A stretch of 44,443 nt of DNA from a virus, in IMG/VR virus record IMGVR_UViG_3300032156_000026, positions 1 to 44,443 of that record; one strand, 5' to 3'. The translations under genes and the position numbers were made by a program. A model generated the notes under the pieces. It was not told where the DNA came from. It ran no database searches and saw only the letters and a list, made by a program, of their open reading frames with translations. Position 1 is the first letter of the stretch; every line of letters begins with the position of its first letter. Shown in pieces: positions 1,333 through 38,544 of this stretch.

Positions 1333-2267
1333 TATGCACCTACCATGTCTGCATATCTCCAATATCTAGTTAGAGACATAGATACAATTCGTAATGTTTG
1401 TCCTTGTACAACTCCAGCACCTGAAGCTGATCCTCGAGCTATACTAATATTATTTACAATCCACTTTGAGTCGTATCCTGTACCATCATTATCAAATTCA
1501 GGATACATATTCTGAGTAGTCGATACAACTAGACTTCTATAAGCTGCCCAAGCCTTTATTAAGGTATACATAGCAACTGTATTAACTCTAAAGGTAATAT
1601 CTATAACTGGTCCTATATTTCCTAGTGGAGGAAGTATCGTAAGAGCTTCACAATCGTATAGTGGAAATGATTGAATAGATCCCTGATGCTTCACTACTAT
1701 CTTAATTAGTCCAACTTGAATGACTTCTGATGGAGCTAATAGGTTAACCATTCTGATATATGGAGTAGCTCCTGTAGATGCAATAGTAGATGACACTGTA
1801 GTATCATTGAATGCAGGACAGTCTACAACATCTACATCTCGTAACTTAATAAGGTTCATATTTAATTTCCAGGTACTCTTAGCTCCAGCCATTCCAGTCT
1901 TATCACGAGTGGTTCCAATAGCCTTTGCTAAGTAGTGCCCATCAATCTCTTCTTGAACGAGTGATCCCAATGTAGTTACTGTATATATTGAATTACATGT
2001 CCAGTTCTTCAAGCTGTCTTTATACTCAGGAAATTCAGGACAAGGAGGGTTGTTCAAATTCCATGGAGCCTCTATCAGAATCTCTTTTGCTTCAGGCCCA
2101 ATCGGTATAGGTAGGTGTTGTTCACCCGGTATAGGAGTAATAACTGATGTTGTCTTTTTTGTAACTGTTATGGATGATGGATATAGATGTGCCTGCTCCT
2201 TTGGGTCTAAAATAGGGTTAAGATCATTTATCTTAACCTGTCTAGTAATGATTAGTGGAGGGGTCAT
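1332..2267 (-). CDS. Tail protein downstream of tape measure (distal tail candidate)
   Basis: The product has 311 residues. The ATG at 2267 overlaps the TGA of the tape-measure gene (ATGA), with GGAG a few bases upstream. It is Pro-rich for the first 70 residues, then beta-rich (for example 'TPYIRMVNLLAPSEVIQVGLIKIVVKHQGSI'), and has no predicted membrane segment or enzymatic motif. In long-tailed viruses the gene directly after the tape measure is usually the distal tail protein or another tail-tip component, which is the likely role here. I do not recognise the family from sequence. Confidence 0.6.
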   Translation of the reverse strand: MTPPLIITRQVKINDLNPILDPKEQAHLYPSSITVTKKTTSVITPIPGEQHLPIPIGPEAKEILIEAPWNLNNPPCPEFPEYKDSLKNWTCNSIYTVTTLGSLVQEEIDGHYLAKAIGTTRDKTGMAGAKSTWKLNMNLIKLRDVDVVDCPAFNDTTVSSTIASTGATPYIRMVNLLAPSEVIQVGLIKIVVKHQGSIQSFPLYDCEALTILPPLGNIGPVIDITFRVNTVAMYTLIKAWAAYRSLVVSTTQNMYPEFDNDGTGYDSKWIVNNISIARGSASGAGVVQGQTLRIVSMSLTRYWRYADMVGA

Positions 2268-5200
2268 CCTGATGCTCCATAGTATCTCTTATTTATAAGC
2301 TCCATTAGGTACTTCTCATCAGTTTTATTGTTTACAGTAACTGTTAGATAGTTAGTTACTGTTTGAGTATTAACTCCTCCTCCAAGCTGATCATTTGGAA
2401 CAATAGTACCTGATTGTTTAGTGGTAAACATCTCAGGACCTCGTTCTCCTACCATATAGGACTGTCCTGGATATACTGAACCACCTGCAGCTTTCTTTAG
2501 AACATTCTGTTTAGATATTGGATCCCAATACCACTGGCCAGGTAATGCTGATCTTTCATTAGCTGCACCTTGTCCACGACCTATTGTTTGCTCATACATC
2601 CCAGCAAGGAAGTCATATCCAGGTATCATACGTAGAATGCCCTGTGCAATTGTCATACCAATATCTGCACCAAGAGCATCAAGCTTTGACCAGTCTCCTG
2701 ATCGGAACGCTGTTGCTATTCCATCAATAATACCAATTATGATATCTGCGAATACAGTTCCAGCTGCCCATACGGCGGTTCCTACTCCTAAGAGAATATC
2801 AACTGCAAGTCTACCAAGTTGCTTCTGAACAGATTCACTATTAACTGATCCTACTAGTCCTGCAACTATAATATCTAGTAAACCACCTGTTCTCTTTCCA
2901 GAAGTATCTTCTGCTCCTAGTAATCCATCAGTTACTGCTTTACTAATACCAGTTGCAAGCTCACTTCCAAGTTTCTTTACTTTCTCCTTATCCCATGTGA
3001 GCATTGCATCCCACATCTTGGCAAACATCTCATTGGTGTATAAAACACTACCAAAGATACCTTTAATGATAGATCCAAGCTTGTTTCCCATCTCGGTTAT
3101 ACCACCCATCGCATCATCAAGGGCTTTATTAATATATGTACGGAATCCACCTACATCGTAGATCCAAGCATCAAGTACTAATACGATAGCTGCTATAAAT
3201 GCAGCACCAAACGTTGACCCTGCTAGTGTAGCACTTGCAGTTACAGTAGATCCGATCCCACCTTCAGTTGCAGCAACAGCACCATACCATTCAGCACCCG
3301 CAGCTACTACTTCTTCACCAGCAACTGCTTTAGTACCAAGATTAATAAGACCCTTACTAGCTAACCATCCGAGTATTCCGTTAACTCCCTTATTTGCCCC
3401 CATACCTGCTGCAATTCCAGTATTACCTGTAAGTAATCCTTTTAGTGCATTAGTTACACCGAGACCTCCTGCTCCTAGTCCAAGTGATTTAGAGATATTA
3501 ATTCCACCTAGTGTAGTCTTTAATGTAGTAAATGCAGCTGGTAGATTTGTTCCTAATGCCCATGCTAGTCCCTTAAGGATTAATACAATACCTTCAATAC
3601 CAGCTCCAAACATTGCAAGGAATGGCATTACCATAGCGGCTGCTACTCCAAGTCCAATCATAAAGGCAAGTATCTTGTCCATTCCTGGAAGTGTAGCAAT
3701 CTCCATGATCTTAGTAGCTACCCACATTAGGAAACTTACTATAGTAGGAATTGCTTCTATTAACTTAGATACAAGAACTATGATCTTCTCAATGAAGCCT
3801 GGATCCATGAGCATGGTAGCTAATTTATCCAGCATATCTGTGATAGCTGTAACTACACGCTTATCACTGAATATCTTATATGCTACATAGGCCAGCATTG
3901 TACTAATAGAAGCTGTCAACCCTTGGTACTGTTTCCAAGCATTAACAATATTCTTGGTATCTCCAAGCATGCTTCTAATCATACCAGCCATTGCACCGCC
4001 TTTAGGTCCGAATGCAATAGCTAACCCAATGTTACTAAAGATAGTTTCAATCTTCTGTAACTGTGAACCAAGAGCTCCCCAAACTTGCCCAATCAAGTTC
4101 ATTACAGATAATGTCGAGAAGTATACACCCAACATTGCCATCTGACTCTGTACCATCATATGCTGAGTCTTTCGAAGCTTATCCGCCTTCTCGTTTAAGA
4201 GTGTACTTAAGGTAACTTCTTTATCTTTTAATACAATGGAGGTGCGATCCTGGTTAATCTCAGGTCCACTAGCTTCAATATCTCTCTTGAGATTTATAAG
4301 CTGATCGAGTTGATCCTGATTACGAGCTGTATATGTAGCTTTTAATCCATGAGCAATACCAGCACCTTCAAGTCCACCACCACGCTCTGTTTCAGTAGTT
4401 GCTAGACTAGTAAATCCAGGACCAGCACGAAGTTGTTTTGATGCTTCCATCATTGCATCGCTAGTATAGGTCCCAACATTAATCTCAACTGTTCGACCTA
4501 TCATTTTGTCAAGGGTTCCCCATGCACGATCAGAGAATGTGTCTTCCCAACCACCTGTAACTCCAGCTGCTGGTTTAGCAGCTTCTGGATATGGAATAGG
4601 ACGACCGAACATCTTCTCATAGTTGTTCTTCAGATGTTTCATATACTCTTCCATTTCGTATGGATCAGTATTAGATCGTAATGTTCCACTTGTTGATCTC
4701 CACAACTCAGTTGATATACTCTTACCCATTGGGAGAAGTCTAGCCATTAACTTAGCATAGATTTCAGATACAAACTGATCATTCTTTAGTGCACTAGGTT
4801 TAAGACCAGTACGTTCACCTACAAATGTACGAAGCTTATCAAAGTCGAATGACTTCTGAATCATCTCTTCAGGAGTCATCCACTTTCTACCTTTCTTTTC
4901 AGGAACCTGGTAGGGTGATTCTGCTTGTGCTGGAAGAGCATGAGTAGTTTCGGGAACAGTGTGTACAACCTCACCGGGTTCTGTAACTGTAAGTTCAGTT
5001 CCAAGACCTTCTTGTAGAACTGGAACAAGTGCTTTTATCCTGGTCATCTCTTCATAAATAGTATTCATCTCGTTACGAATAGGAGCCTGATCGAAAGTAT
5101 TTTCAGCTTGACCTTTAAGTACAGCCATTGCATCCTTTAACTTATAGTACTTATCAATTAAAGCTGCGGGCTCATTGGCTTGATGAGCTAAGTCACCCAT

Positions 5201-8200
5201 ATCTGCATCAATTAGTCCACTTACATTGCTAGAAACAGGACCAGTCTTATGTGAGGTAACACTGATACCATACATCTTAGCTATGTTTGATTGCATAGAT
5301 GATGCAACTTCATCAGTTATTGTTGATCGTATCGCAGGAGCTAACTGTGTAGTTATATCATCAACAAACCCTTGCAGTTTGCTAGATTGATCTTTAAGAT
5401 CCTGAGCAAATGTAAAGTAAGTTGTCTGCTTTCGTCCAACAATACCAAACTTGTCAACGATACCTTGTGTGTTTTGGAATACTCTCTTGAATGTCTCCGC
5501 ATCATCAGGTGATATGATAGCATTCTCTTCTGGATGTGAATGCATCATTGTTATTTGACTAACACCTGTCTCATCAACAAATGCCTTAATACTAGCAAGT
5601 GTCTCAGCAAGTATTTCTTTTGGAATTTCATTTTCGGTGCCAGTACGTCTACTTCCTGGAATCTCACCATATTCTTTTGAGAATCCCCACACTTGCTCAA
5701 GATCACCCTTAGTGGGCATTGCAGCTTTAAGACCTTTAAGCTCATTAAGTCTCGCTTGATTTCTATAGACTGGTTTACCCTCTTCTGTCTCAAAGTGTGG
5801 ATTTGGTGGTGGAAGTGTAACACCTTCACGTTTATTAGCAGCTTTAAGTTGTGCAGCACGTTCTGTATCAGATATAACATTTATACGCTTACGACCAGTA
5901 CCTACATCTTTAAGCCACAACTCATCTAGAGCAGTCTGTAGACTGTTTCGATTTCGTTCTATTCCATCTACATACTGATAGATAGCATCCTTATCAACTT
6001 TAAGAAGTTCAGTATACTGATCATAGACCTGCTTAGCCTTCTCTTTTGTATTCTCAGAGGTAGTAACCTGTGCAGGATTGATACCAACGCTTTCAACAAC
6101 CTTTAAGAGTTCATCTTTAAACCAGGATCCCTGATCACCTGGCATTGTTCCTCTTGATGAGAATATCTTCTGCTTATTCTTAATGATATCATCTACGAAT
6201 GTCTGGAAGTACGCACCTTTTACATTGCTCTTCTTAAAGTCCTGATACATGTCTGGGAAGGGAATATCCGTGAAGAACTTCGTTAAGCCGCCAAAAGCAT
6301 CAATGGTCTTTTTACTATTAAATCCGGTAACTGTTTCATCCCAGTCGTATCCAGTGGTAGTGTGCTGCTTCTTATGCTTCTCCATTATTTTATCATGGAT
6401 CTTTCCACCAATCTTACCACCGGTAAATCCAAATCCACCAGCTACTGCTGGAAGAACATCATACATTCCTGCACCGGCAGCTATAGTTCCACCAACTATA
6501 CCTCCACCAACTCCTAGGACTTCAGGTATACTTATCTTAGGTGCAACTTTGGCGTACTTATCAACCATCTTACTAGCAATATCACCAAGTCTATTCTGCT
6601 TAAGAGAGGTACCTTCAAGAATCCTCATCCACTTATCTTTCTCATTCTCTACTTGTGCTGGTTCAGGATGTTGAAGTGCATAGTTCCGAAGTTTCTCTTG
6701 ACGGTCAGGGCTAGCAACAATCCTCTTAGGTGGATGTGCTAATTGATATGCATCTTGATCTGCAGCTTCCTTATTACGTATCTCTCTCTGACGAGCAAGT
6801 AAGTCGGTTGGATCTTGTGTTCTATTATCTGTTCTCCAACTAAATGCACCTACAGCTTTAATATACTCACGAGCTTGATCTTCTTTAGATCGTTCAGTAG
6901 TTAGACCTGACTCTTTTACTGTAGGCATTGTTGTCTTTTCTTCAGATGTTGGTATTGTATTATATAATGCTCTGGCTTTATCTGTATATTCCTTATTAAG
7001 TTCACCAACCTTATAATCAGACATTACTCCAGATTCTTCCATTATCTTAGCTGCTTTCTGCTCCATCTGATCTCTTAGAGCAGTCATAGCTTCAGAAAGT
7101 TTAGTTTCACCTTCTCTTCGCATATCCCATAACTTCTCAGCAACCTTCTGGGAAGTATACCGTTCTTCTACATCTGGAAGTATATACTTATCTTTAGCTT
7201 TCTGTCTAAGAGGTGTCTGTAATACTTGATAGTCTGATTGCAATCCCATCAGTTCATCATAAAGCTTACGACCAGTAACATGGTTCTGAACACTTACACC
7301 TTTAATGTGTTGTTTAATTAGATCAACCTTCTCGTAGAAATCTCCAAAGAATGACTTCGGATCACTTACCATTATTGTAAGTTCTTTCATCTCATGTTGA
7401 ATAAACTTAGTGATCTCATCCATTCTAATCTGACTGTTACTCTTCTCAAAGTAGCTAGTATCACTACGAACAGCAGGAGCAGGTGGAGGAGTTACACGAG
7501 GTGGTGAGGTGGGAAGTTCAGTTTGTACCGTTTCACTAGATGGATCTGCAGTCGATCGAATACGTTCACCTACAGCATATGGAGTCTGAAAGCGAGGTAT
7601 TTCTGGCATATACTGTGCAATTCTGCTCCAGTCTGGTGTTGTAGCTTCAGGTATTAGATTTGTATCTTTACCAAAGTCTGCTGCATGTCCGCCTGCATCT
7701 AGTTTCTTCTTTGCACCAGTCATTAGTTCTATAGCGTGTTGATGTTTGGCACTATTTAAGAACTTCATTCGTTCATAGTTTTTCTCACCATATAATTGCT
7801 TACCTTGCTGTTCAATAATTAGGTTAGCAATCATATCAAGAGGAGCACCCTCTTCATCCATTTCAGTAGGATCTGGTGAATGCCCAACAACTTTCTGCCA
7901 GAGACCTTCTTTACCGGTATCTCGCATAATAGCTCTAGACATTAACTTGTCAAGATCTTCTTGAACATTTCGCATAGCAAGCGCTGCATTAGGAATAACA
8001 TCTCCTTCTTCATCATGGGTGCGCGTGTATCCACGACCCTCTAATGCTCTTCTTGCTAACCAACGTCTTAAATTATTGATGGATCGAACTGGGTGAGACT
8101 CTTGTCCAATACCACGAGCATATCTAGCATTCCATATTGTCTTATCATTTGGATTTTGTTTCTTACCGAAGAAGTCCATTGGGAAAGCTTTACGAGCCAT

Positions 8201-9976
8201 CTCAAGCTCATCACCCTCCATCTTCTCATTATAGTCTCTTTCGGCAGTAGGATAGGTCCATTCTTTCTCTTTAGTATAGTACTCTTTATATTTAGAGCCC
8301 TCAAGAGAAGATAGTCCCCTCTGCCATTCAATATATGCGGGTTCTTCTCTATCACTTGTAGTAGTATCTGGAGGCTTTACTTTCTGATGAGCCGCCATCT
8401 TCTCCATAAATTGTTTAGCAAGTTCTGGAGATCTTTCTTTATCTACCATCTTATAATACTTAGAACGCTCTTCTTCAGATATTCTATTAAGAGTATCAGT
8501 ACCAGTATACTGGTTAACTAAATACTCAATCATCGGTTTAGTCTTATCATCTATAGCTAGACCTTGAACTACACTCCCGATAGATGAATTAGGAAATACA
8601 TCACTGAGCTTATCAGTAAACATCTTTAAATGGTCCCAGAATGCTGCCTTAGTATTAAGAACTGGAGATTCTACAGTATTAGCTCTCTTTCTTGCACTTA
8701 AAGATGACTTAGTTGCACCTTCAATTTCATCTGTAACGTATTTACCAGCACCTGTATTTTCATATTCTCGCTCATCAATAGCATTTGGTTGGAATACATC
8801 AGCAAATCCTTCTGATGGTCCACCAGGTCTAAGGCTAAATGGATATCCTGTGAACTTACCATTTGCAGTTCCCTTCATACCCTTTAGGTAAATATCAGGT
8901 CTCATCCAGGAAGTATTTGACCATTCTTGAGCTTGTAAGTCTCGAGCTGCATCTATTGAAGCTCGTGCATACATCTCACGGAAATCATCACGAGGAGCTT
9001 TTGCAGTTCTTAATTTCTTAATAATACCTTCTTCACCTGTAGCATGAAGAGAACTAAGCATCTTCTCAATTGATTGTGCTCTTGCTAATACTGTCTTACG
9101 ACCGTTTAGAGCTTGATCACGAATTACAGGACGAAGTCTACCGCCAGCTGAGTATGAATTAGCAACTTGATAGGTACCTACATTTGGATACTCAATTGGT
9201 ACCTCCTGAATGTCTTCTCTGAAGGTAGGACGTCTAAGATTAAGTAATGCATATGTTTCTGCAGTCTTCTTAGTAAATCTAACTTCATCTTCGAGTATTT
9301 TATCAAATTCAGGCTTAACAGCAAGTCGAACTTCGTTATAGCTTCTTCGAAGATTCTGTTCTCGTCTTGAAGCACTAGCCATTCTATTAGCTAATTTCTC
9401 ATACGATCTTACTGTAGTAGCATATCCTTGACTTATCATTGATGGATTTAATGCTTTAACCTGACTAGGCACTCTTGGCGAATCCAACACTGTTGTACTT
9501 GTATCTTGTACAACATCCTTCCCTACGAAATATGTTGGTGAGGTTCGACCCAATTTATTAGCTAAATCAACAGCTTGATCTGCCTTTCGCTGAAGAATAG
9601 CATCCGCCCAATCGCGCTTTCCTTGATTTTTACTGATAGTAGGGAGTTTCTGAGGTGTACCAGATGCTGCAGATTTAGCTAATGACTTTGCATTAGCTCT
9701 CTGAAGTGATACCCTATTAGTGAGTTCACGTACTCTTGTTAGTGAGGTTTGGAGTCTGATCTCGTGAGCAGAAGCAGCTTGTTTACCATACAGAACGTTC
9801 CGTTCCACTTCAAGTTTTGAGACACGCTCAGATTCGATATCAATCTTAGCTTGAATATCATCGATTACTTTACTACCTGCATTTTGCCTGATAGCCTTTC
9901 GAAGTGCTTGTGCATGGCGGTCTACTATTGAGACCGTACTATCGATTTTCTGATCTAACTCTTCAATTTTAGTCAC
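2264..9976 (-). CDS. Tail tape measure protein with embedded JAMM metalloprotease motif
   Basis: This 2,570-residue protein sets tail length and is ejected with the DNA. The start is taken as GTG at 9976, because AGGAGG (9990-9985) lies 8 nt upstream; an in-frame GTG at 9985 is inside that SD and cannot be used. Charged, coiled-coil sequence fills most of residues 1-1100. A Gly/Ala-rich hydrophobic stretch lies near 1145-1195. A full JAMM motif, HxH-x7-S-x2-D (His1479, His1481, Ser1489, Asp1492), lies within a compact alpha/beta segment. Several hydrophobic helices occupy about 1940-2260. Near 2510 comes 'GERGPEMFTTKQSGTIVPN', a tail-end signature shared by many tape measures. The gene follows the frameshifted chaperone, as expected. 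By usual tape-measure scaling the tail would be very long. Confidence 0.95.
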   Translation of the reverse strand: MTKIEELDQKIDSTVSIVDRHAQALRKAIRQNAGSKVIDDIQAKIDIESERVSKLEVERNVLYGKQAASAHEIRLQTSLTRVRELTNRVSLQRANAKSLAKSAASGTPQKLPTISKNQGKRDWADAILQRKADQAVDLANKLGRTSPTYFVGKDVVQDTSTTVLDSPRVPSQVKALNPSMISQGYATTVRSYEKLANRMASASRREQNLRRSYNEVRLAVKPEFDKILEDEVRFTKKTAETYALLNLRRPTFREDIQEVPIEYPNVGTYQVANSYSAGGRLRPVIRDQALNGRKTVLARAQSIEKMLSSLHATGEEGIIKKLRTAKAPRDDFREMYARASIDAARDLQAQEWSNTSWMRPDIYLKGMKGTANGKFTGYPFSLRPGGPSEGFADVFQPNAIDEREYENTGAGKYVTDEIEGATKSSLSARKRANTVESPVLNTKAAFWDHLKMFTDKLSDVFPNSSIGSVVQGLAIDDKTKPMIEYLVNQYTGTDTLNRISEEERSKYYKMVDKERSPELAKQFMEKMAAHQKVKPPDTTTSDREEPAYIEWQRGLSSLEGSKYKEYYTKEKEWTYPTAERDYNEKMEGDELEMARKAFPMDFFGKKQNPNDKTIWNARYARGIGQESHPVRSINNLRRWLARRALEGRGYTRTHDEEGDVIPNAALAMRNVQEDLDKLMSRAIMRDTGKEGLWQKVVGHSPDPTEMDEEGAPLDMIANLIIEQQGKQLYGEKNYERMKFLNSAKHQHAIELMTGAKKKLDAGGHAADFGKDTNLIPEATTPDWSRIAQYMPEIPRFQTPYAVGERIRSTADPSSETVQTELPTSPPRVTPPPAPAVRSDTSYFEKSNSQIRMDEITKFIQHEMKELTIMVSDPKSFFGDFYEKVDLIKQHIKGVSVQNHVTGRKLYDELMGLQSDYQVLQTPLRQKAKDKYILPDVEERYTSQKVAEKLWDMRREGETKLSEAMTALRDQMEQKAAKIMEESGVMSDYKVGELNKEYTDKARALYNTIPTSEEKTTMPTVKESGLTTERSKEDQAREYIKAVGAFSWRTDNRTQDPTDLLARQREIRNKEAADQDAYQLAHPPKRIVASPDRQEKLRNYALQHPEPAQVENEKDKWMRILEGTSLKQNRLGDIASKMVDKYAKVAPKISIPEVLGVGGGIVGGTIAAGAGMYDVLPAVAGGFGFTGGKIGGKIHDKIMEKHKKQHTTTGYDWDETVTGFNSKKTIDAFGGLTKFFTDIPFPDMYQDFKKSNVKGAYFQTFVDDIIKNKQKIFSSRGTMPGDQGSWFKDELLKVVESVGINPAQVTTSENTKEKAKQVYDQYTELLKVDKDAIYQYVDGIERNRNSLQTALDELWLKDVGTGRKRINVISDTERAAQLKAANKREGVTLPPPNPHFETEEGKPVYRNQARLNELKGLKAAMPTKGDLEQVWGFSKEYGEIPGSRRTGTENEIPKEILAETLASIKAFVDETGVSQITMMHSHPEENAIISPDDAETFKRVFQNTQGIVDKFGIVGRKQTTYFTFAQDLKDQSSKLQGFVDDITTQLAPAIRSTITDEVASSMQSNIAKMYGISVTSHKTGPVSSNVSGLIDADMGDLAHQANEPAALIDKYYKLKDAMAVLKGQAENTFDQAPIRNEMNTIYEEMTRIKALVPVLQEGLGTELTVTEPGEVVHTVPETTHALPAQAESPYQVPEKKGRKWMTPEEMIQKSFDFDKLRTFVGERTGLKPSALKNDQFVSEIYAKLMARLLPMGKSISTELWRSTSGTLRSNTDPYEMEEYMKHLKNNYEKMFGRPIPYPEAAKPAAGVTGGWEDTFSDRAWGTLDKMIGRTVEINVGTYTSDAMMEASKQLRAGPGFTSLATTETERGGGLEGAGIAHGLKATYTARNQDQLDQLINLKRDIEASGPEINQDRTSIVLKDKEVTLSTLLNEKADKLRKTQHMMVQSQMAMLGVYFSTLSVMNLIGQVWGALGSQLQKIETIFSNIGLAIAFGPKGGAMAGMIRSMLGDTKNIVNAWKQYQGLTASISTMLAYVAYKIFSDKRVVTAITDMLDKLATMLMDPGFIEKIIVLVSKLIEAIPTIVSFLMWVATKIMEIATLPGMDKILAFMIGLGVAAAMVMPFLAMFGAGIEGIVLILKGLAWALGTNLPAAFTTLKTTLGGINISKSLGLGAGGLGVTNALKGLLTGNTGIAAGMGANKGVNGILGWLASKGLINLGTKAVAGEEVVAAGAEWYGAVAATEGGIGSTVTASATLAGSTFGAAFIAAIVLVLDAWIYDVGGFRTYINKALDDAMGGITEMGNKLGSIIKGIFGSVLYTNEMFAKMWDAMLTWDKEKVKKLGSELATGISKAVTDGLLGAEDTSGKRTGGLLDIIVAGLVGSVNSESVQKQLGRLAVDILLGVGTAVWAAGTVFADIIIGIIDGIATAFRSGDWSKLDALGADIGMTIAQGILRMIPGYDFLAGMYEQTIGRGQGAANERSALPGQWYWDPISKQNVLKKAAGGSVYPGQSYMVGERGPEMFTTKQSGTIVPNDQLGGGVNTQTVTNYLTVTVNNKTDEKYLMELINKRYYGASG

Positions 9977-10148
9977 TAGACCCACCTCCTAACCCCACTA
10001 ACTTTTGAATTATCGGCAATACTGTTTTCATCACTTGCGAATCAAACTGCAATCTTGCCTCCCACTCATCTTGAGTATCCCACCCAATTAGAGTGGAAGG
10101 TCTTGATCCAGTTGTATAAGCAGTGAGACCTAGCTCTGTTACCAGACT
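9969..10148 (-). CDS. Frameshift extension of tail chaperone (T part of GT)
   Basis: After the TAG of the short chaperone the +1 (equivalently -2) frame is open for 59 codons, from AGT at 10148 to TAA at 9971-9969. It reads SLVTELGLTAYTTGSRPSTL, then a segment with GWDTQDEWEARL, and ends VGLGGGSSD. There is no suitably placed start codon (only an internal GTG-ATG about 19 codons from the end), so it is expressed only by frameshifting near ATC TTG CCC GCC TAG. The extension ends 8 nt inside the tape-measure gene, whose SD lies within it. This matches the G/GT arrangement conserved in long-tailed phages. The extended protein would be about 200 residues. The exact slip site and direction are inference. 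Confidence 0.75.
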   Translation of the reverse strand, partial: SLVTELGLTAYTTGSRPSTLIGWDTQDEWEARLQFDSQVMKTVLPIIQKLVGLGGGSSD

Positions 10149-20672: not shown

Positions 20673-20712
20673 TATATGGGTTAATACCAGGAGCTGAGGG
20701 AGTATTCACTAT

Positions 20713-20784
20713 AAATTGCAGAATGAAGCTTGTGCAATAGCTCGTCCACTTGGTGGCAAAATTGCAGCCATGGGAGCTTGTGCA
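20713..20784. repeat. Bipartite direct repeat in divergent spacer
   Basis: AAATTGCAG followed by AGCTTGTGCA occurs twice: at 20713-20721 and 20727-20736, then at 20759-20767 and 20775-20784. The copies are about 47 bp apart. They lie in the 258-bp gene-free spacer (20628-20885) between the leftward late and rightward early halves, upstream of the late TATA box. A regulator site controlling the late switch is a possible role. Nothing else was seen in the spacer besides this and the two promoter regions. Confidence 0.55.
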
Positions 20785-20837
20785 GACCATCGGAATTTGT
20801 GGTAAATAGTATGCCAGGACCGTATATAGTAATATAA

Positions 20838-20860
20838 GAATGTTATAAGTTATAATATTC
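20838..20860 (+). promoter_or_regulatory. Early promoter region with palindrome
   Basis: GAATGTTATAA, one central G, then TTATAATATTC form an 11-bp palindrome with one mismatch. It overlaps AT-rich TATA-like sequence 25-45 bp before the first rightward gene (ATG 20886, with GGAGGT at 20873-20878). This is a likely TATA promoter with an overlapping operator. Confidence 0.5.
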
Positions 20861-20885
20861 TTAAATTACTATGGAGGTATAGGAT

Positions 20886-21059
20886 ATGAAAACATATAGT
20901 GAAATAAGAAATCAAGTACAGTATTATGAAGATAAATGTGACCAAAATATAATATGGTCTAAACAAGACACATCTGTATCAAATAAACTATTCTTTGAAT
21001 CTAATGCTAGAAACTATAGACAAGCAGCAGAAAAACTAAGACGTGAAATGAATGACTAA
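20886..21059 (+). CDS. Small hypothetical protein, first early gene
   Basis: The product has 57 residues (MKTYSEIRNQVQYYEDKCDQ...REMND). The start is ATG 20886, with GGAGGT seven bases upstream. It is charged and helical throughout, likely a coiled coil. It is first in the rightward transcript and overlaps the next gene by 8 bp. No family is recognised. Confidence 0.65.
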   Translation: MKTYSEIRNQVQYYEDKCDQNIIWSKQDTSVSNKLFFESNARNYRQAAEKLRREMND

Positions 21060-24383: not shown

Positions 24384-24539
24384 ATGACTGAAATCATACA
24401 TGAACTCTGCGTAAGAACGATGGAATACCACGAATCATGTGACGTTAGATTACATGTGTGGGTAAAAATGTACCAGGAGGTACCATTATGGCAGCAAACA
24501 CGCCCATCAATGCAAAGAATGTCGACTGGAATCAGGTAA
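24384..24539 (+). CDS. Small ORF overlapping the next gene
   Basis: The product has 51 residues (MTEIIHELCVRTMEYHESCD...). GGTGATGAT lies upstream of ATG 24384. Its last 52 bp overlap the strongly supported gene at 24488 in another frame, so the C-terminus is doubtful. It may act as a short leader ORF. Confidence 0.4.
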   Translation: MTEIIHELCVRTMEYHESCDVRLHVWVKMYQEVPLWQQTRPSMQRMSTGIR

Positions 24540-24826
24540 TGACTGAAGTTCCGGTAACAGGGACTAAGAAGTCTGGCATCGTTAGTGAAATCCATAAGGC
24601 ACTTGCAGCAATTCTGGCAGACGGGAAACCCCGTGAAGTTCGGACTCTGCAAATGTGGATTGAGGCTGGACTCAACCAAGACATCGTCAACGACGAGGAT
24701 AAAGTTGTAGTGCACTGGGCAACGGTCAAGCATGCACTTTCAACTGGTCCATACGTCCAGGTTGAGCACAATGTCTTCACCAATGGTGGAACAATCAAGC
24801 CACGTGGACGGAAGGGGAGGAAGTAA
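24488..24826 (+). CDS. Small basic-tailed putative DNA-binding protein A
   Basis: The product has 112 residues. The start is ATG 24488 (MAANTPINAKNVDWNQVMTE), behind CCAGGAGGTACC. Residues 30-65 form helices separated by a turn ('SEIHKALAAILADGKPREVR'), followed by a helix and beta wing ('GPYVQVEHNVFTNGG') and a basic tail PRGRKGRK. A winged-helix chromatin-type protein is likely. Codons are C- and G-ended (for example ATC, AAG, CGG) compared with neighbours, suggesting strong expression. Layout matches two other proteins at 27564 and 34487. Confidence 0.75.
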   Translation: MAANTPINAKNVDWNQVMTEVPVTGTKKSGIVSEIHKALAAILADGKPREVRTLQMWIEAGLNQDIVNDEDKVVVHWATVKHALSTGPYVQVEHNVFTNGGTIKPRGRKGRK

Positions 24827-24846
24827 TCTACCAATTTTTAGGTAGG
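24827..24846 (+). terminator. Short hairpin after protein A gene
   Basis: CTACC and GGTAG pair around an AATTTTTA loop, directly after the TAA at 24824-24826. The T-run is in the loop. A transcript end or processing site is plausible. Confidence 0.4.
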
Positions 24847-24848
24847 TG

Positions 24849-25440
24849 CTTCTTGTATATAGAGAAGATACGTCCCCTAACAGCGATGTTCATAGCAAGA
24901 TCCATGTGCCTAGAAACGTGGGATCCATCTCACAAATGTAGGAACATGAATGCTATGACAAGGAAGAGTGTTGACAGTTACTATGTACATATGTACCTAG
25001 TACTGTCATTACTCTAAATATCTTTATAGTCTAATGTCGTAAATGCGATCCACGACCGGTCAATTCGATGGGTATCCGCATTAACAAACTGCTAATGGAC
25101 TAATAACGACGGCCGGCGCCACGAGCTCGCGGCCTCATTCGGCGCACTAAACTGGCAAACCCGCATGTAGCTCGCGGGGCCATTGGGTGTAAACCAGGTC
25201 GGAAGTAAAGAAGTTAAAGAGGATATACAACTTCACCCAAGGAGCAGCGCCAAAATACACCTATGCCTGAAACATAGCACCACAGCTCTAGCGCTTGCAT
25301 TCCCACTCCCTTCACCCTGATTATACCTGCTTCTCGATAGCTACAAGCGGAGAGACATGTTTAGAGCTATGGCCATCATAATGAGCTCCTTACTCCTCCA
25401 GCCCTTTAGTTATTATATAGAGGTGGTGATGCTCTAAACA
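24849..25440. ncRNA. Candidate large structured non-coding RNA region
   Basis: About 590 bp without any convincing ORF, locally GC-rich (25110-25190) in an AT-rich genome. Nested pairings include 24891-24897/24951-24957 enclosing 24903-24907/24944-24948 and 24918-24924/24927-24933. Further stems are 24966-25014, 25042-25047/25077-25082, 25160-25164/25174-25178, 25183-25189/25234-25240 enclosing 25210-25215/25229-25233, 25284-25290/25362-25368 enclosing 25292-25297/25344-25349, and 25358-25367/25431-25440. Such density points to a folded RNA transcribed probably rightwards, or a replication origin. It sits between two operons and stops 4 bp before the next TATA box. No match to RNase P, tRNA or rRNA signatures was seen. 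Confidence 0.6.
24966..25014. repeat. Long near-perfect hairpin, about 21 bp
   Basis: Arms: GAGT, TGACAGT, ACTA and GTACAT pair with ATGTAC, TAGT, ACTGTCA and ACTC, broken only by a GT/TT mismatch, one bulged T and a T/C mismatch. There is essentially no loop, since GTACATATGTAC is a palindrome. It would be stable as RNA or as a DNA cruciform, and is part of the larger structured region. Confidence 0.7.
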
Positions 25441-25443
25441 ATA

Positions 25444-25453
25444 CATATATAAG
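25444..25453 (+). promoter_or_regulatory. TATA-box promoter
   Basis: CATATATAAG lies about 50 bp before ATG 25504, giving an expected start near 25475 and a leader with GAGG. It begins four bases after the last arm of the structured region. Confidence 0.5.
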
Positions 25454-25503
25454 TGACCAAGTTGAATATATATTATAGAAAACTATAAGATTTGAGGATA
25501 CTG

Positions 25504-26067
25504 ATGGTTGAGTGGTCACGACTAACAAAACTTTATGAAGATCTAGATGCTCTTCGTAGGTCTAGAGCTCCAAGGGGCTCTAAAACTGGTGAAGTTATCG
25601 TGAAAGAATGGTCCTCGAAGTGGATTGCATATGCGACCAATCAAATCAATTCAGAGTATCTGAAGGAGACGTGGCAAGGAACGACAAACTTAAACATTAA
25701 TTGTTCAGATGACCATATTGCACATGTTATTCTGAGACAATACAAACATATAATCCATCCGTTCAAGACACCGTTTCGAGCGAGTGATTTCATTCCTGAA
25801 GCAGTGTGGCAACAGATGTTGAAGAAAGTTGCAGAGTGTAGAGAATATAATAGAATCTGGATCGAAACAGATCGGAGAGAATTATGGAGCAAGGATTGGC
25901 AGACTATGTCAGAAGAGGATTACCTGGCAAGTTTGATATGCAGCGAGAACGAACCTTTATTACTAGTCATGGAAGTACAACCGATCAAATGTACGAAGAA
26001 GGTTACATTGCGCGTGGGACTTGGTTTGCAACAAAGCGAGTACTACAAGCCAGAGCGGAAACGTTAA
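25504..26067 (+). CDS. Hypothetical protein
   Basis: The product has 187 residues. The start is ATG 25504 (MVEWSRLTKLYEDLDALRRS), with GAGG six bases upstream and a TATA box further up. It is rich in Trp and charged residues, with helical stretches ('FIPEAVWQQMLKKVAECREY'). The last 61 codons are also read in another frame by the gene at 25884. One of the two C-terminal assignments may be wrong, or this is a true overlap. No family is recognised. Confidence 0.6.
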   Translation: MVEWSRLTKLYEDLDALRRSRAPRGSKTGEVIVKEWSSKWIAYATNQINSEYLKETWQGTTNLNINCSDDHIAHVILRQYKHIIHPFKTPFRASDFIPEAVWQQMLKKVAECREYNRIWIETDRRELWSKDWQTMSEEDYLASLICSENEPLLLVMEVQPIKCTKKVTLRVGLGLQQSEYYKPERKR

Positions 26068-35651: not shown

Positions 35652-36680
35652 ATGAAACCCTATGTAGATACACTCGTAAAAAATGATTGGACTCAAGCTA
35701 ACGCTGAGGCCAAAGTGAAACAACTCGAAGATGCTATTAAGAAGAAATTTCCAGCAGCAACTCCCGAGTTTATTGCAAAGACAATGACTGCAGCTATCAA
35801 TACCCTGACCAAGAGCAAGATTGAAGTTATATCAGGTCTCTGTGTCGGATTTGGTAAGAAACAAGATTCGAATAACTTCGCCAAGATGAAGGCCAAGGAA
35901 ATCTGGGACCAAAATTCAACAACTGCGGTCGCAGAGAAGTATGTCGTGGTTGACTCAGCCGGTGCTGTCGTGTTTGAACTCGATGACAAAGGCAAGCAGA
36001 TCAAGGACACGCATGGAAACGCCGTGCCGGTCTGGGCAGACAACCGTCAGTTCATTGATCCCGATACCCAGAAAATGAAGAACTCTCGGTGGGGAAAAGC
36101 TCTCGGAGAGAATATCCAACGGGATGCATACTTCATTGTGGATGGAAAGTTTGTTCGTGCATTCGGCAACTTTGATGTCCAGATGGGACATGAATATCAG
36201 ATATTCGGAACAATGAGCAAGAAGGGGTACATTACTATCCCGAAGAACTCCCCAGGAGTTAAGCATGTACGCATGCTCGATGATATAGTCTACTGGAAGG
36301 CTGTAGATACAGTGGCCCAGAAAGATGACCTGGCTGTACCTCTTGGAGATGTTTTCGACATGGCCAAGAACAAGCCTGTTGTGACTAAAGGAACAGTAAC
36401 TGCAGCAAGAGCTGCGGGAAGCTCCTATATGATTGTCATCACCGATGAGACCTATCCAGATGGGTACATGTGCTTTGCAGCTGATGAAGCTCTTATCACA
36501 GAATGTGAGTCGCTCGGTGCTGGAAATGAGATCATTGTCATTGGTAAGACTGGTGAATCGGTCGATAAAGAAACCAAAGAAGTCCGGAAGAACATTTCCG
36601 TATACGGTTTCGCCTCCAATCCTGAATCAGACAAAGTCGCAGGTGCCGTCCGGTCCCTGGATGATGTCTTATACTCCTAA
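35652..36680 (+). CDS. Putative OB-fold single-strand DNA-binding protein
   Basis: The product has 342 residues and starts at ATG 35652 behind GAGG. The N-terminal 60 residues are helical. The rest is beta-rich, with 'NEIIVIGKTGESVDKETKEV' and 'KNISVYGFASNPES' resembling the end of an OB fold, and an acidic C-terminal end 'AGAVRSLDDVLYS'. Codons are C/G-ended, suggesting high expression, as expected of a single-strand-binding protein. A RecA-fold recombinase gene follows. Annotated from fold-level pattern and context; other roles are possible. Confidence 0.5.
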   Translation: MKPYVDTLVKNDWTQANAEAKVKQLEDAIKKKFPAATPEFIAKTMTAAINTLTKSKIEVISGLCVGFGKKQDSNNFAKMKAKEIWDQNSTTAVAEKYVVVDSAGAVVFELDDKGKQIKDTHGNAVPVWADNRQFIDPDTQKMKNSRWGKALGENIQRDAYFIVDGKFVRAFGNFDVQMGHEYQIFGTMSKKGYITIPKNSPGVKHVRMLDDIVYWKAVDTVAQKDDLAVPLGDVFDMAKNKPVVTKGTVTAARAAGSSYMIVITDETYPDGYMCFAADEALITECESLGAGNEIIVIGKTGESVDKETKEVRKNISVYGFASNPESDKVAGAVRSLDDVLYS

Positions 36681-36689
36681 TTTTTTTTG
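36681..36689 (+). terminator. T-tract terminator
   Basis: Eight T directly follow the TAA of the 342-residue gene (36681-36688). Archaeal RNA polymerase terminates at such tracts without needing a hairpin. The following sequence is a separate structured region. Confidence 0.6.
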
Positions 36690-36690
36690 T

Positions 36691-36938
36691 GCTAGAAGAA
36701 CCTGGTTCACTCCAGACTAGCAAATTCCCCGAGACGTCGGGTATCATGGGAAAATACGCGTCCTAGAGGAGAAACCCCATGACGTAGCTGCACCTTTGCA
36801 CTGGGACAGGTAACGAAATAATGTGCATGCACGGTCCCCTAGGAGACTCAGAGAGAAAGAGTCCTAGATGGTTGGGTGGTAATGCGAGTGCAGGTCATAC
36901 CTGCAGCCACTCATGAGATTATTGGTAGTCCAATGATC
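36691..36938 (+). ncRNA. Chain of RNA hairpins upstream of Sak4-like gene
   Basis: At least seven paired elements follow each other: 36691-36695/36717-36721 enclosing 36702-36705/36712-36715; 36728-36732/36737-36741; 36744-36750/36776-36782; 36803-36807/36834-36838; 36839-36849/36859-36867 with a 2-nt bulge; 36886-36912; and 36917-36925/36930-36938 with a TAGT loop. There is no ORF. It may be a stand-alone small RNA or a long structured leader of the gene at 36953; no clear TATA box was found. Confidence 0.55.
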
Positions 36939-36952
36939 TTAACGGTGATACT

Positions 36953-37918
36953 ATGGGTTTAGCATCAGGACCGAAAGGTAAAAGTGTAGAAGTGGGACGT
37001 GTACCAAAAAGCATACGCGATGTTTTTCGTCCCTCAACCGAACTGGAGCATGTCTCCGGACTAAAGATTGCTGTATACTCACGTGCTAAGGTGGGAAAGA
37101 CTCATCTAGCTTTCACGTGTCCATTGCCAATTTATGGTATAGACACAGAAGGATCATGGTCACTAAACAAGAATCAGTTCTCAGCAGATGTACAAAAGCA
37201 AGTGCATGTGTCACAAGTGTTGTACATGGCCGATAAAGAGGGCGGAAAAGTTGATCTTGTAAAGTCACTTGATGCTGCACGAGATGCCGTAGATGTTCTT
37301 ACAGATTATATTGCCTGTAATGATAAGGTAGAAACTTTCCTGAAAGAGAAAGAACATGCTACAGTACTCGAGATTATTGTAGGTCTCACCACTCCAGACT
37401 ACATACCTAATCCAGATACTATTAGTTATGTACTGGAAGAGATGGCATTCTATGGAACAGCTAGACTCAGTGAGGATCAATGGGCATTTGTTACACCTTT
37501 CCCAAAAGGTACAATTGTGATTGATTCTGGAACAGATATCTGGGACTGGCTCGGGATATGGAAGGATGAACAGAACTTCACAGATCCAGGACGTCTTCAG
37601 TGGGGACATGCCAACAAACGCTACAATCAGTTCATCATGATGCTACTACATTCGAAATGGAATGTACTTGGGTCCTTTAAAGCCGAAGCAATGGTAGATA
37701 CTAAAGGTGGCGATATCGGAACAGACAAAGCTAAATGGCAGAAAAAGACCGACTACTGGTTTGATGTCATCATTGAGATGAAAAAGATTGGTAATGATCG
37801 TCAAGTTATCTTTAGAGGTGATCGATTTGGAGGAAACATCTCTACCTTGATCAATCCAACATGGAACGATATTGTTACCGAACTTGAATCGAACAAGAAG
37901 ATTAAGGTGATCAAATGA
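36953..37918 (+). CDS. RecA-fold ATPase, Sak4-like recombinase
   Basis: The product has 321 residues and starts at ATG 36953, with GGTGAT close upstream. 'LKIAVYSRAKVGKTHLAFTC' carries a P-loop in which Ser replaces the first Gly (SRAKVGKT). 'PLPIYGIDTEGSW' and the Walker B-like 'GTIVIDSGTDIWDWL' complete the phage AAA_24/Sak4 pattern. A positively charged C-terminal strand set ('DRQVIFRGDRFGGN') follows. Sak4 proteins anneal or exchange single strands with help of an SSB, matching the neighbour at 35652. An insertion of about 100 residues between Walker A and B is longer than usual. The next gene overlaps by ATGA. Confidence 0.7.
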   Translation: MGLASGPKGKSVEVGRVPKSIRDVFRPSTELEHVSGLKIAVYSRAKVGKTHLAFTCPLPIYGIDTEGSWSLNKNQFSADVQKQVHVSQVLYMADKEGGKVDLVKSLDAARDAVDVLTDYIACNDKVETFLKEKEHATVLEIIVGLTTPDYIPNPDTISYVLEEMAFYGTARLSEDQWAFVTPFPKGTIVIDSGTDIWDWLGIWKDEQNFTDPGRLQWGHANKRYNQFIMMLLHSKWNVLGSFKAEAMVDTKGGDIGTDKAKWQKKTDYWFDVIIEMKKIGNDRQVIFRGDRFGGNISTLINPTWNDIVTELESNKKIKVIK

Positions 37919-38544
37919 TTGATCTTAAAAGTCTGCAAGAGGATCTACTAAGATTCTCTGAAGATGGTCGAAGTGATGTGGAGATGCGTGCTTCCATTGT
38001 GATGAGTCAATTCGGGCACCTATTAAGCCACATGACCCATGACCAGATTCTAAATCCAACAGCACGACCATTTGGTTCCCAAGCAGGTGAGGTTAACGAT
38101 GCAGGACACTTCCTACTTCAAGCGTGTACTTATGTGGCTCTACGTGGTATCGATATAGAACAGGCCATGGAAAGCGCACTAGTAGCATTGAGAGATCGTG
38201 ACTTTCAAAAAGTAGAACTCCGTGAAGGTAATGGACAGCTGGTATATCCTGGTCCATGTACTGGTATTGCTCTAGTAACCAACCACTTGGAAGGATTAGT
38301 GCTTCCAAGAAATTGCAGTACCATCCTTGTCACTTCACATCCAAGATCAGGACTTGCACAGCATGTGCACTTACTGATGGGAATCATTACAGACGAGGGT
38401 GGCATCGGCTGCCACGCAGCAATAATTGCAAGAGAGTTCAAAGTACCCTGTGTAGTTGGAACGGGCAACGCTACTAGGACAATTAAGACAGGCGATCTTG
38501 TATCCATCAATGAAGATGGTATGATTGAGGTGAAGAAAATATGA
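37915..38544 (+). CDS. MazG-like / PEP-utilising swivelling-domain fusion
   Basis: The product has 209 residues. ATG 37915 overlaps the upstream TGA. Residues 25-100 are helical, with 'GEVNDAGHFLLQACTYVALRG' (Glu59, Asp62) like the second half of MazG-type NTP pyrophosphohydrolases; the first EExxE helix is not evident. Residues 110-209 match the mobile phosphohistidine domain of PEP synthase and pyruvate phosphate dikinase: 'ILVTSHPRSGL', then 'GGIGCHAAIIAREFKVPCVV' with His167, and 'GDLVSINEDGMIEV'. No ATP-grasp or PEP-binding domain is present. Role unknown; perhaps nucleotide sanitation or phosphotransfer with host enzymes. Confidence 0.65.
   Translation: MIDLKSLQEDLLRFSEDGRSDVEMRASIVMSQFGHLLSHMTHDQILNPTARPFGSQAGEVNDAGHFLLQACTYVALRGIDIEQAMESALVALRDRDFQKVELREGNGQLVYPGPCTGIALVTNHLEGLVLPRNCSTILVTSHPRSGLAQHVHLLMGIITDEGGIGCHAAIIAREFKVPCVVGTGNATRTIKTGDLVSINEDGMIEVKKI

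Follow-up and report, generated by a model that had tools for sequence, protein, structure and literature searches.

A conserved mini-gene with a structured operon end and a CpG-rich non-coding spacer between two operons of a likely archaeal tailed virus

In this report, we describe an interval of almost 600 nucleotides (positions 24849 to 25440) in a viral genome, which had been proposed in a first-pass annotation to be one large structured noncoding RNA. We consider it probable that the interval is instead a composite, in which a mini-gene with a structured operon end is followed by a CpG-rich non-coding spacer. In the mechanism we propose, a hairpin over the ribosome-binding site of the mini-gene would stay closed unless a ribosome finishing the upstream gene opens it, and the last hairpin, together with a T-run in related viruses, would set or protect the 3' end of the operon transcript. 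The spacer would act as DNA, most likely by binding regulators of the next operon's promoter.

Results and discussion

The virus and its relatives

The window (that is, the whole stretch of DNA analyzed) is the entire virus record IMGVR_UViG_3300032156_000026, 44,443 bp in length. It encodes a family-B DNA polymerase, a Sak4-like protein, a dCTP deaminase, a tail tube protein, a capsid protein and a large terminase. Among phage records, the best long matches to the polymerase come from haloarchaeal tailed viruses, at roughly 25% identity. Because of these matches, the TATA-type promoters, and the ERCC4/HHH and folE2-type genes carried by one relative (G001), the virus is likely to be an archaeal tailed virus. 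Neither a single TerL sequence nor a TerL profile, searched against the genome collection, found a provirus or host, and blastn against phage records gave no match.

Relatives were found in IMG/VR, with terminases that are about 70 to 82% identical to that of the window. G001 spans 64.9 kb with a 55-base terminal repeat and has a near-copy, G002; G005 spans 74.9 kb with a 44-base terminal repeat and has G006 as its near-copy. The remaining records (G003, G004, G007 and G008) are fragments. Further queries with the 122-aa protein encoded upstream of the interval, a TerL profile and a profile of the downstream gene returned the same records and two distant ones, which contain neither flanking gene within the fetched stretch. 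Homologues of the interval are few: three complete and two partial.

Three other features of these genomes were observed. The ratio of observed to expected CpG is 0.58 in the window, 0.50 in G001 and 1.02 in G005, a sharp contrast despite similar gene order. The structural region of the window contains a single ORF of 2573 aa (2264-9985, minus strand), whose counterparts in the relatives are shorter and match only part of it, at just about 30% identity. Directly after the Sak4-like gene is a gene for a protein with a PEP-utilising-enzyme mobile domain (37915-38544), which has 43% identity to its counterpart in G001.

A small conserved gene

The left part of the interval and the region preceding it contain two genes:
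24488-24826, plus strand: upstream gene, 112 aa from the ATG at 24488 (the open frame begins at 24458 and gives 122 aa), supported by syntenic homologues and alignment
24853-25017, plus strand: small conserved ORF, 54 aa, TTG start, with the core TAMFIARSMCLETW, supported by a leave-one-out HMM, alignment and codon-position differences

The upstream 122-aa gene has syntenic homologues in 7 of the 8 related records. A structure model of its product (pLDDT 68) consists of three helices and a beta hairpin, so a winged-helix protein is possible on this low-confidence model. Structure-based identification was dropped, given that confidence and the lack of a significant PDB match.

The interval had been annotated as having no gene, but positions 24853 to 25017 contradict this. 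ORFs matching the core occur at the same place in G001, G008, G004 and G005, and thus in five viruses including the window. When an HMM was trained on the other four copies, the window copy was the top hit among all six-frame segments (E = 1.4e-4). In the same kind of search, the copies in G001 (E = 1.2e-5) and G005 (E = 0.037) were each the best six-frame segment in their own genome. Within a 14-codon core, differences number 57, 36 and 90 at the first, second and third codon positions, and so are concentrated at the third. Moreover, of the 69 residue pairs that are identical, 33 are encoded by differing codons, and identity in the other two frames is far lower (22 and 23 of 130). As judged from the aligned sequences, this codon-position pattern is a protein-coding signature.

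The protein tails are not conserved, and most hairpins fall in them. In the window copy, translation would have to begin at a TTG, and the protein carries five extra N-terminal residues, which weighs somewhat against the composite interpretation. On this sequence evidence, the ORF is a small conserved gene that ends the upstream rightward operon, and its message is more structured than shuffled sequences.

Folding is confined to the left part

Folding energies were compared with those of dinucleotide-shuffled sequences. Such z-scores have to be judged relative to the genome they come from, whose background mean is -1.05, not 0 (590 segments of 200 nt, standard deviation 1.42). The whole interval scores z = -3.5 on the plus strand and -2.8 on the minus strand, in agreement with the earlier expectation of excess folding. 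This excess, however, is not distributed over the interval. Positions 24827 to 25100 give z = -5.4 to -5.9 on the plus strand, the hairpin region 24960-25020 on its own gives -6.2, and the piece ahead of this end hairpin (24815-24960) gives -4.0. By contrast, the right 420 nt are indistinguishable from shuffled sequences: 25000-25300 and 25100-25440 score +0.3 and -0.6 on the plus strand and -0.9 and 0.0 on the minus strand, and 100-nt scans across 25018-25440 remain near 0. The complementary arms previously noted do exist (we found 22 inverted pairs, although short ones often arise by chance), but they do not form one structured unit of about 600 nt. RNA structure beyond chance is confined to the left 190 nt (24827 to 25017 or 25020), on the plus strand.

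Against the genome background, this left part ranks 8th among the 590 segments, and so is strong but not unique. An excess at the equivalent position is also seen in three of the four relatives (z = -5.2 in G001, -10.5 in G008 and -2.6 in G004), the exception being G005 (z = +0.2). In G001, the left region is the top segment of 589, where this segment was deliberately placed and the adjoining segment of the regular grid ranks 4th; the GC-rich spacer of G001 is mid-rank.

The strongest plus-strand folding signal lies elsewhere in the window, at 20676-20900, with z = -7.3 for 20701-20900 (20 shuffles) and z = -3.6 for 20676-20890 (200 shuffles). This region is just downstream of the TATA-like sequence CCTATATATAAA and ahead of rightward early genes. 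It is a candidate structured leader RNA, and possibly a better finding than that at 24849-25440.

Hairpins, a paired ribosome-binding site and the 3' end

Three hairpins were predicted in the left part:
24826-24847, plus strand: hairpin ATCTACC/GGTAGGT, beginning at the stop of the 122-aa gene, whose 3' arm contains what is likely the Shine-Dalgarno sequence for the small ORF (predicted fold)
24890-24958, plus strand: large hairpin inside the small ORF, with arms TCATAGCA (24890-24897) and TGCTATGA (24951-24958) and inner stems (inverted pairs, predicted fold)
24965-25015, plus strand: near-perfect 51-nt hairpin that closes the small ORF, a candidate terminator or 3'-end stabilizer (inverted pairs, z = -6.2); the stop codon TAA is at 25015-25017

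In translational coupling, a hairpin hides the Shine-Dalgarno sequence of the next gene. For the Shine-Dalgarno region of the small ORF, the predicted probability of being unpaired averages 0.12 in the window, 0.10 in G001, 0.11 in G004, 0.35 in G008 and 0.62 in G005, compared with 0.45 +/- 0.13 at 26 other starts of the window. The window is thus predicted to have a sequestered ribosome-binding site beside the upstream stop, as expected of a coupled gene pair. Pairing of this region with bases near the stop of the 122-aa gene is predicted in three of the five viruses and partly in a fourth (G008), and in this the predicted site resembles hairpin-based coupling. It differs in that G005 does not have a paired Shine-Dalgarno sequence. 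Two observations count against the composite interpretation: G005 has neither the fold excess nor the paired site, and the hairpins of the left part are not conserved pair by pair among the relatives.

A strong hairpin closes the mini-gene in the window, G001 and G008, and in the latter two it is followed by T8. In all four relatives, the stop codon is located 0 to 8 nt ahead of a run of 5 to 9 T residues. Archaeal termination uses U-tracts and does not strictly require a hairpin (PMC8716108). The relatives resemble aCPSF1-dependent operon 3' ends (PMC8716108) in having a T-run shortly past the last stop, whereas the window copy differs from them in having a strong hairpin and no T-run after the mini-gene stop. 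Because the U-tract signal is absent from this copy, termination in the window would depend on the hairpin by itself, a further point against the composite interpretation. From these predicted structures, we infer that the left part is the 3' end of the upstream operon, where a translationally coupled mini-gene would be combined with terminator or stabilizer hairpins.

A more elaborate hypothesis is that the mini-gene is a ribosome-sensing switch that ends an archaeal viral operon and through which the timing of the next operon is tied to translation of the upstream one. A ribosome that reads the small ORF through to its stop codon, located within or at the terminator hairpin, would open this hairpin, and transcription would continue through the CpG-rich spacer into the next operon. 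We regard this hypothesis as quite unlikely. An attenuator interpretation of the overlap between stop and terminator was downgraded, because another gene in the window (342 aa, stop at 36680) likewise has its stop codon immediately before a T8. Stopping ahead of a T-run is thus a habit of this virus and does not by itself point to a special attenuator. The T8 after the 342-aa gene is followed by an ORF-free gap of 270 nt with several hairpins (36681-36952; z = -2.3 on the plus strand), for which we found no Rfam match.

The CpG-rich spacer

To the right of the mini-gene are the following features:
25018-25440, no strand assigned: non-coding spacer, syntenic in relatives (no conserved ORF, fold z of about 0)
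25024-25189, no strand assigned: GC- and CpG-rich island within the spacer (CpG counts, CGACCG motif)

The GC-rich core that was part of the original observation is confirmed: GC content over 120 nt peaks at 0.59 (25070-25189), versus 0.418 genome-wide. The highest CpG count of the window is at 25024-25143. The spacer also contains the top CpG segment of G001 and is among the top ones in G005, and it is CpG-rich within genomes that avoid CpG (the window and G001), although G005 exhibits no such avoidance. CGACCG is present in all five spacers, and CGACCGA and GTTAAAG each occur in four of five, above shuffled expectation, for motifs that were picked after viewing the sequences. Among ORF-poor gaps, the interval as a whole ranks first by size in G001 and second in the window.

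Over 33.8 kb, two substitutions and a single 5-nt indel (AAAAG) separate G005 from G006 (99.98% identical), and this indel falls in the spacer homologous to 25018-25440. An 88-aa ORF in the G006 spacer was rejected, because the indel breaks its frame in G005.

RNAalifold assigned the three complete spacers -10.7 kcal/mol, versus -12.0 +/- 3.6 for shuffled columns, in a comparison of few sequences and low power. Since this gives no sign of a common fold, the spacer is more likely to act as DNA than as RNA. By elimination, its most likely role is that of regulatory DNA, to which regulators of the next operon's promoter would bind.

Alternatively, the spacer could be a replication origin, whose initiator would bind at CGASCGAS-type motifs. 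The early region would be a suitable position for an origin, the spacer is long for an otherwise compact genome, and its CpG-rich island is conserved in position and has a locus-specific repeat that in G001 and G005 is found only there. However, this CGAS-type repeat is missing from the window itself. Although CGACCGA-type motifs, chosen post hoc, are enriched across the relatives' spacers, we found no tandem iteron array, and a scan for archaeal ORB elements gave scattered hits with no cluster in the gap. Also, no initiator gene was identified, and the skew does not switch at the spacer. The skew minimum, a measure confounded by gene direction, is at 20.66 kb in the window and 32.35 kb in G001, where gene direction changes, 3 to 4.5 kb from the spacer. 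We therefore consider an origin unlikely, and regulatory DNA remains the preferred role for the spacer.

The promoter of the next operon

The spacer is bounded on its right by these elements:
25441-25480, plus strand: promoter block TATATAAGTGACCAAGTTGAATATATATT with flanks, in single copy in each genome (three-virus alignment, uniqueness)
25492-26067, plus strand: first gene of the next operon, 191 aa from the TTG at 25492, with a conserved ATG at 25504 (homologues in G001 and G005)

The interval had been reported to stop at the TATA box of the next operon, and indeed a conserved, TATA-bearing promoter block starts at about 25441. Positions 25430 to 25480 are 85% identical to G001. Like the intergenic promoter repeats of halovirus HF2, this is an AT-rich, conserved intergenic promoter block in an archaeal tailed virus, but the HF2 elements are repeated (PMC8707807), whereas the present block occurs once per genome.

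Two AT-rich boxes flank a conserved GTGACCAAGTT in this block, which could suggest a bidirectional promoter producing a leftward antisense RNA that runs through the spacer. GC skew is also negative in 25001-25500, opposite to that of neighboring coding stretches. However, minus-strand folding of the spacer stays close to background in both the window and G001 and dips only mildly in G005 (z = -2.9), and neither a conserved minus-strand ORF nor a terminator was seen. Such an antisense RNA is thus improbable.

Comparison with large ornate RNAs

Like GOLLD, ROOL and OLE RNAs (PMC12286853), the interval is a long, ORF-poor viral region with many complementary arms, but it differs from them in lacking an Rfam match and covariation, in having no excess folding over most of its length, and in being partly coding. 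Rfam searches gave no match at the gathering score anywhere in the window, and at a relaxed threshold (E up to 5) only chance-level hits, with none in the four relatives. A scan for tRNAs and tmRNAs found none. No consensus structure better than column shuffles emerged from RNAalifold, which assigned 0 kcal/mol to the five left parts, again with few sequences and low power. It is therefore highly improbable that a GOLLD- or ROOL-like transcript of about 600 nt covers the whole interval, in spite of the whole-interval fold score, the GC-rich core and the size of the gap, because the fold excess is limited to the coding stretch, the core has neither a consensus fold nor an Rfam match, and a terminator-like T-run splits the homologous interval in relatives.

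Conclusions

A giant ornate RNA in an archaeal virus was a striking candidate, but a poorly supported one, and this analysis puts a local anatomy in its place. To the operon map it adds a small protein family that is absent from a simple reading of ORFs, an unusually structured operon end at which translational coupling and termination may occur, and a positionally conserved, CpG-rich spacer that probably acts as DNA.
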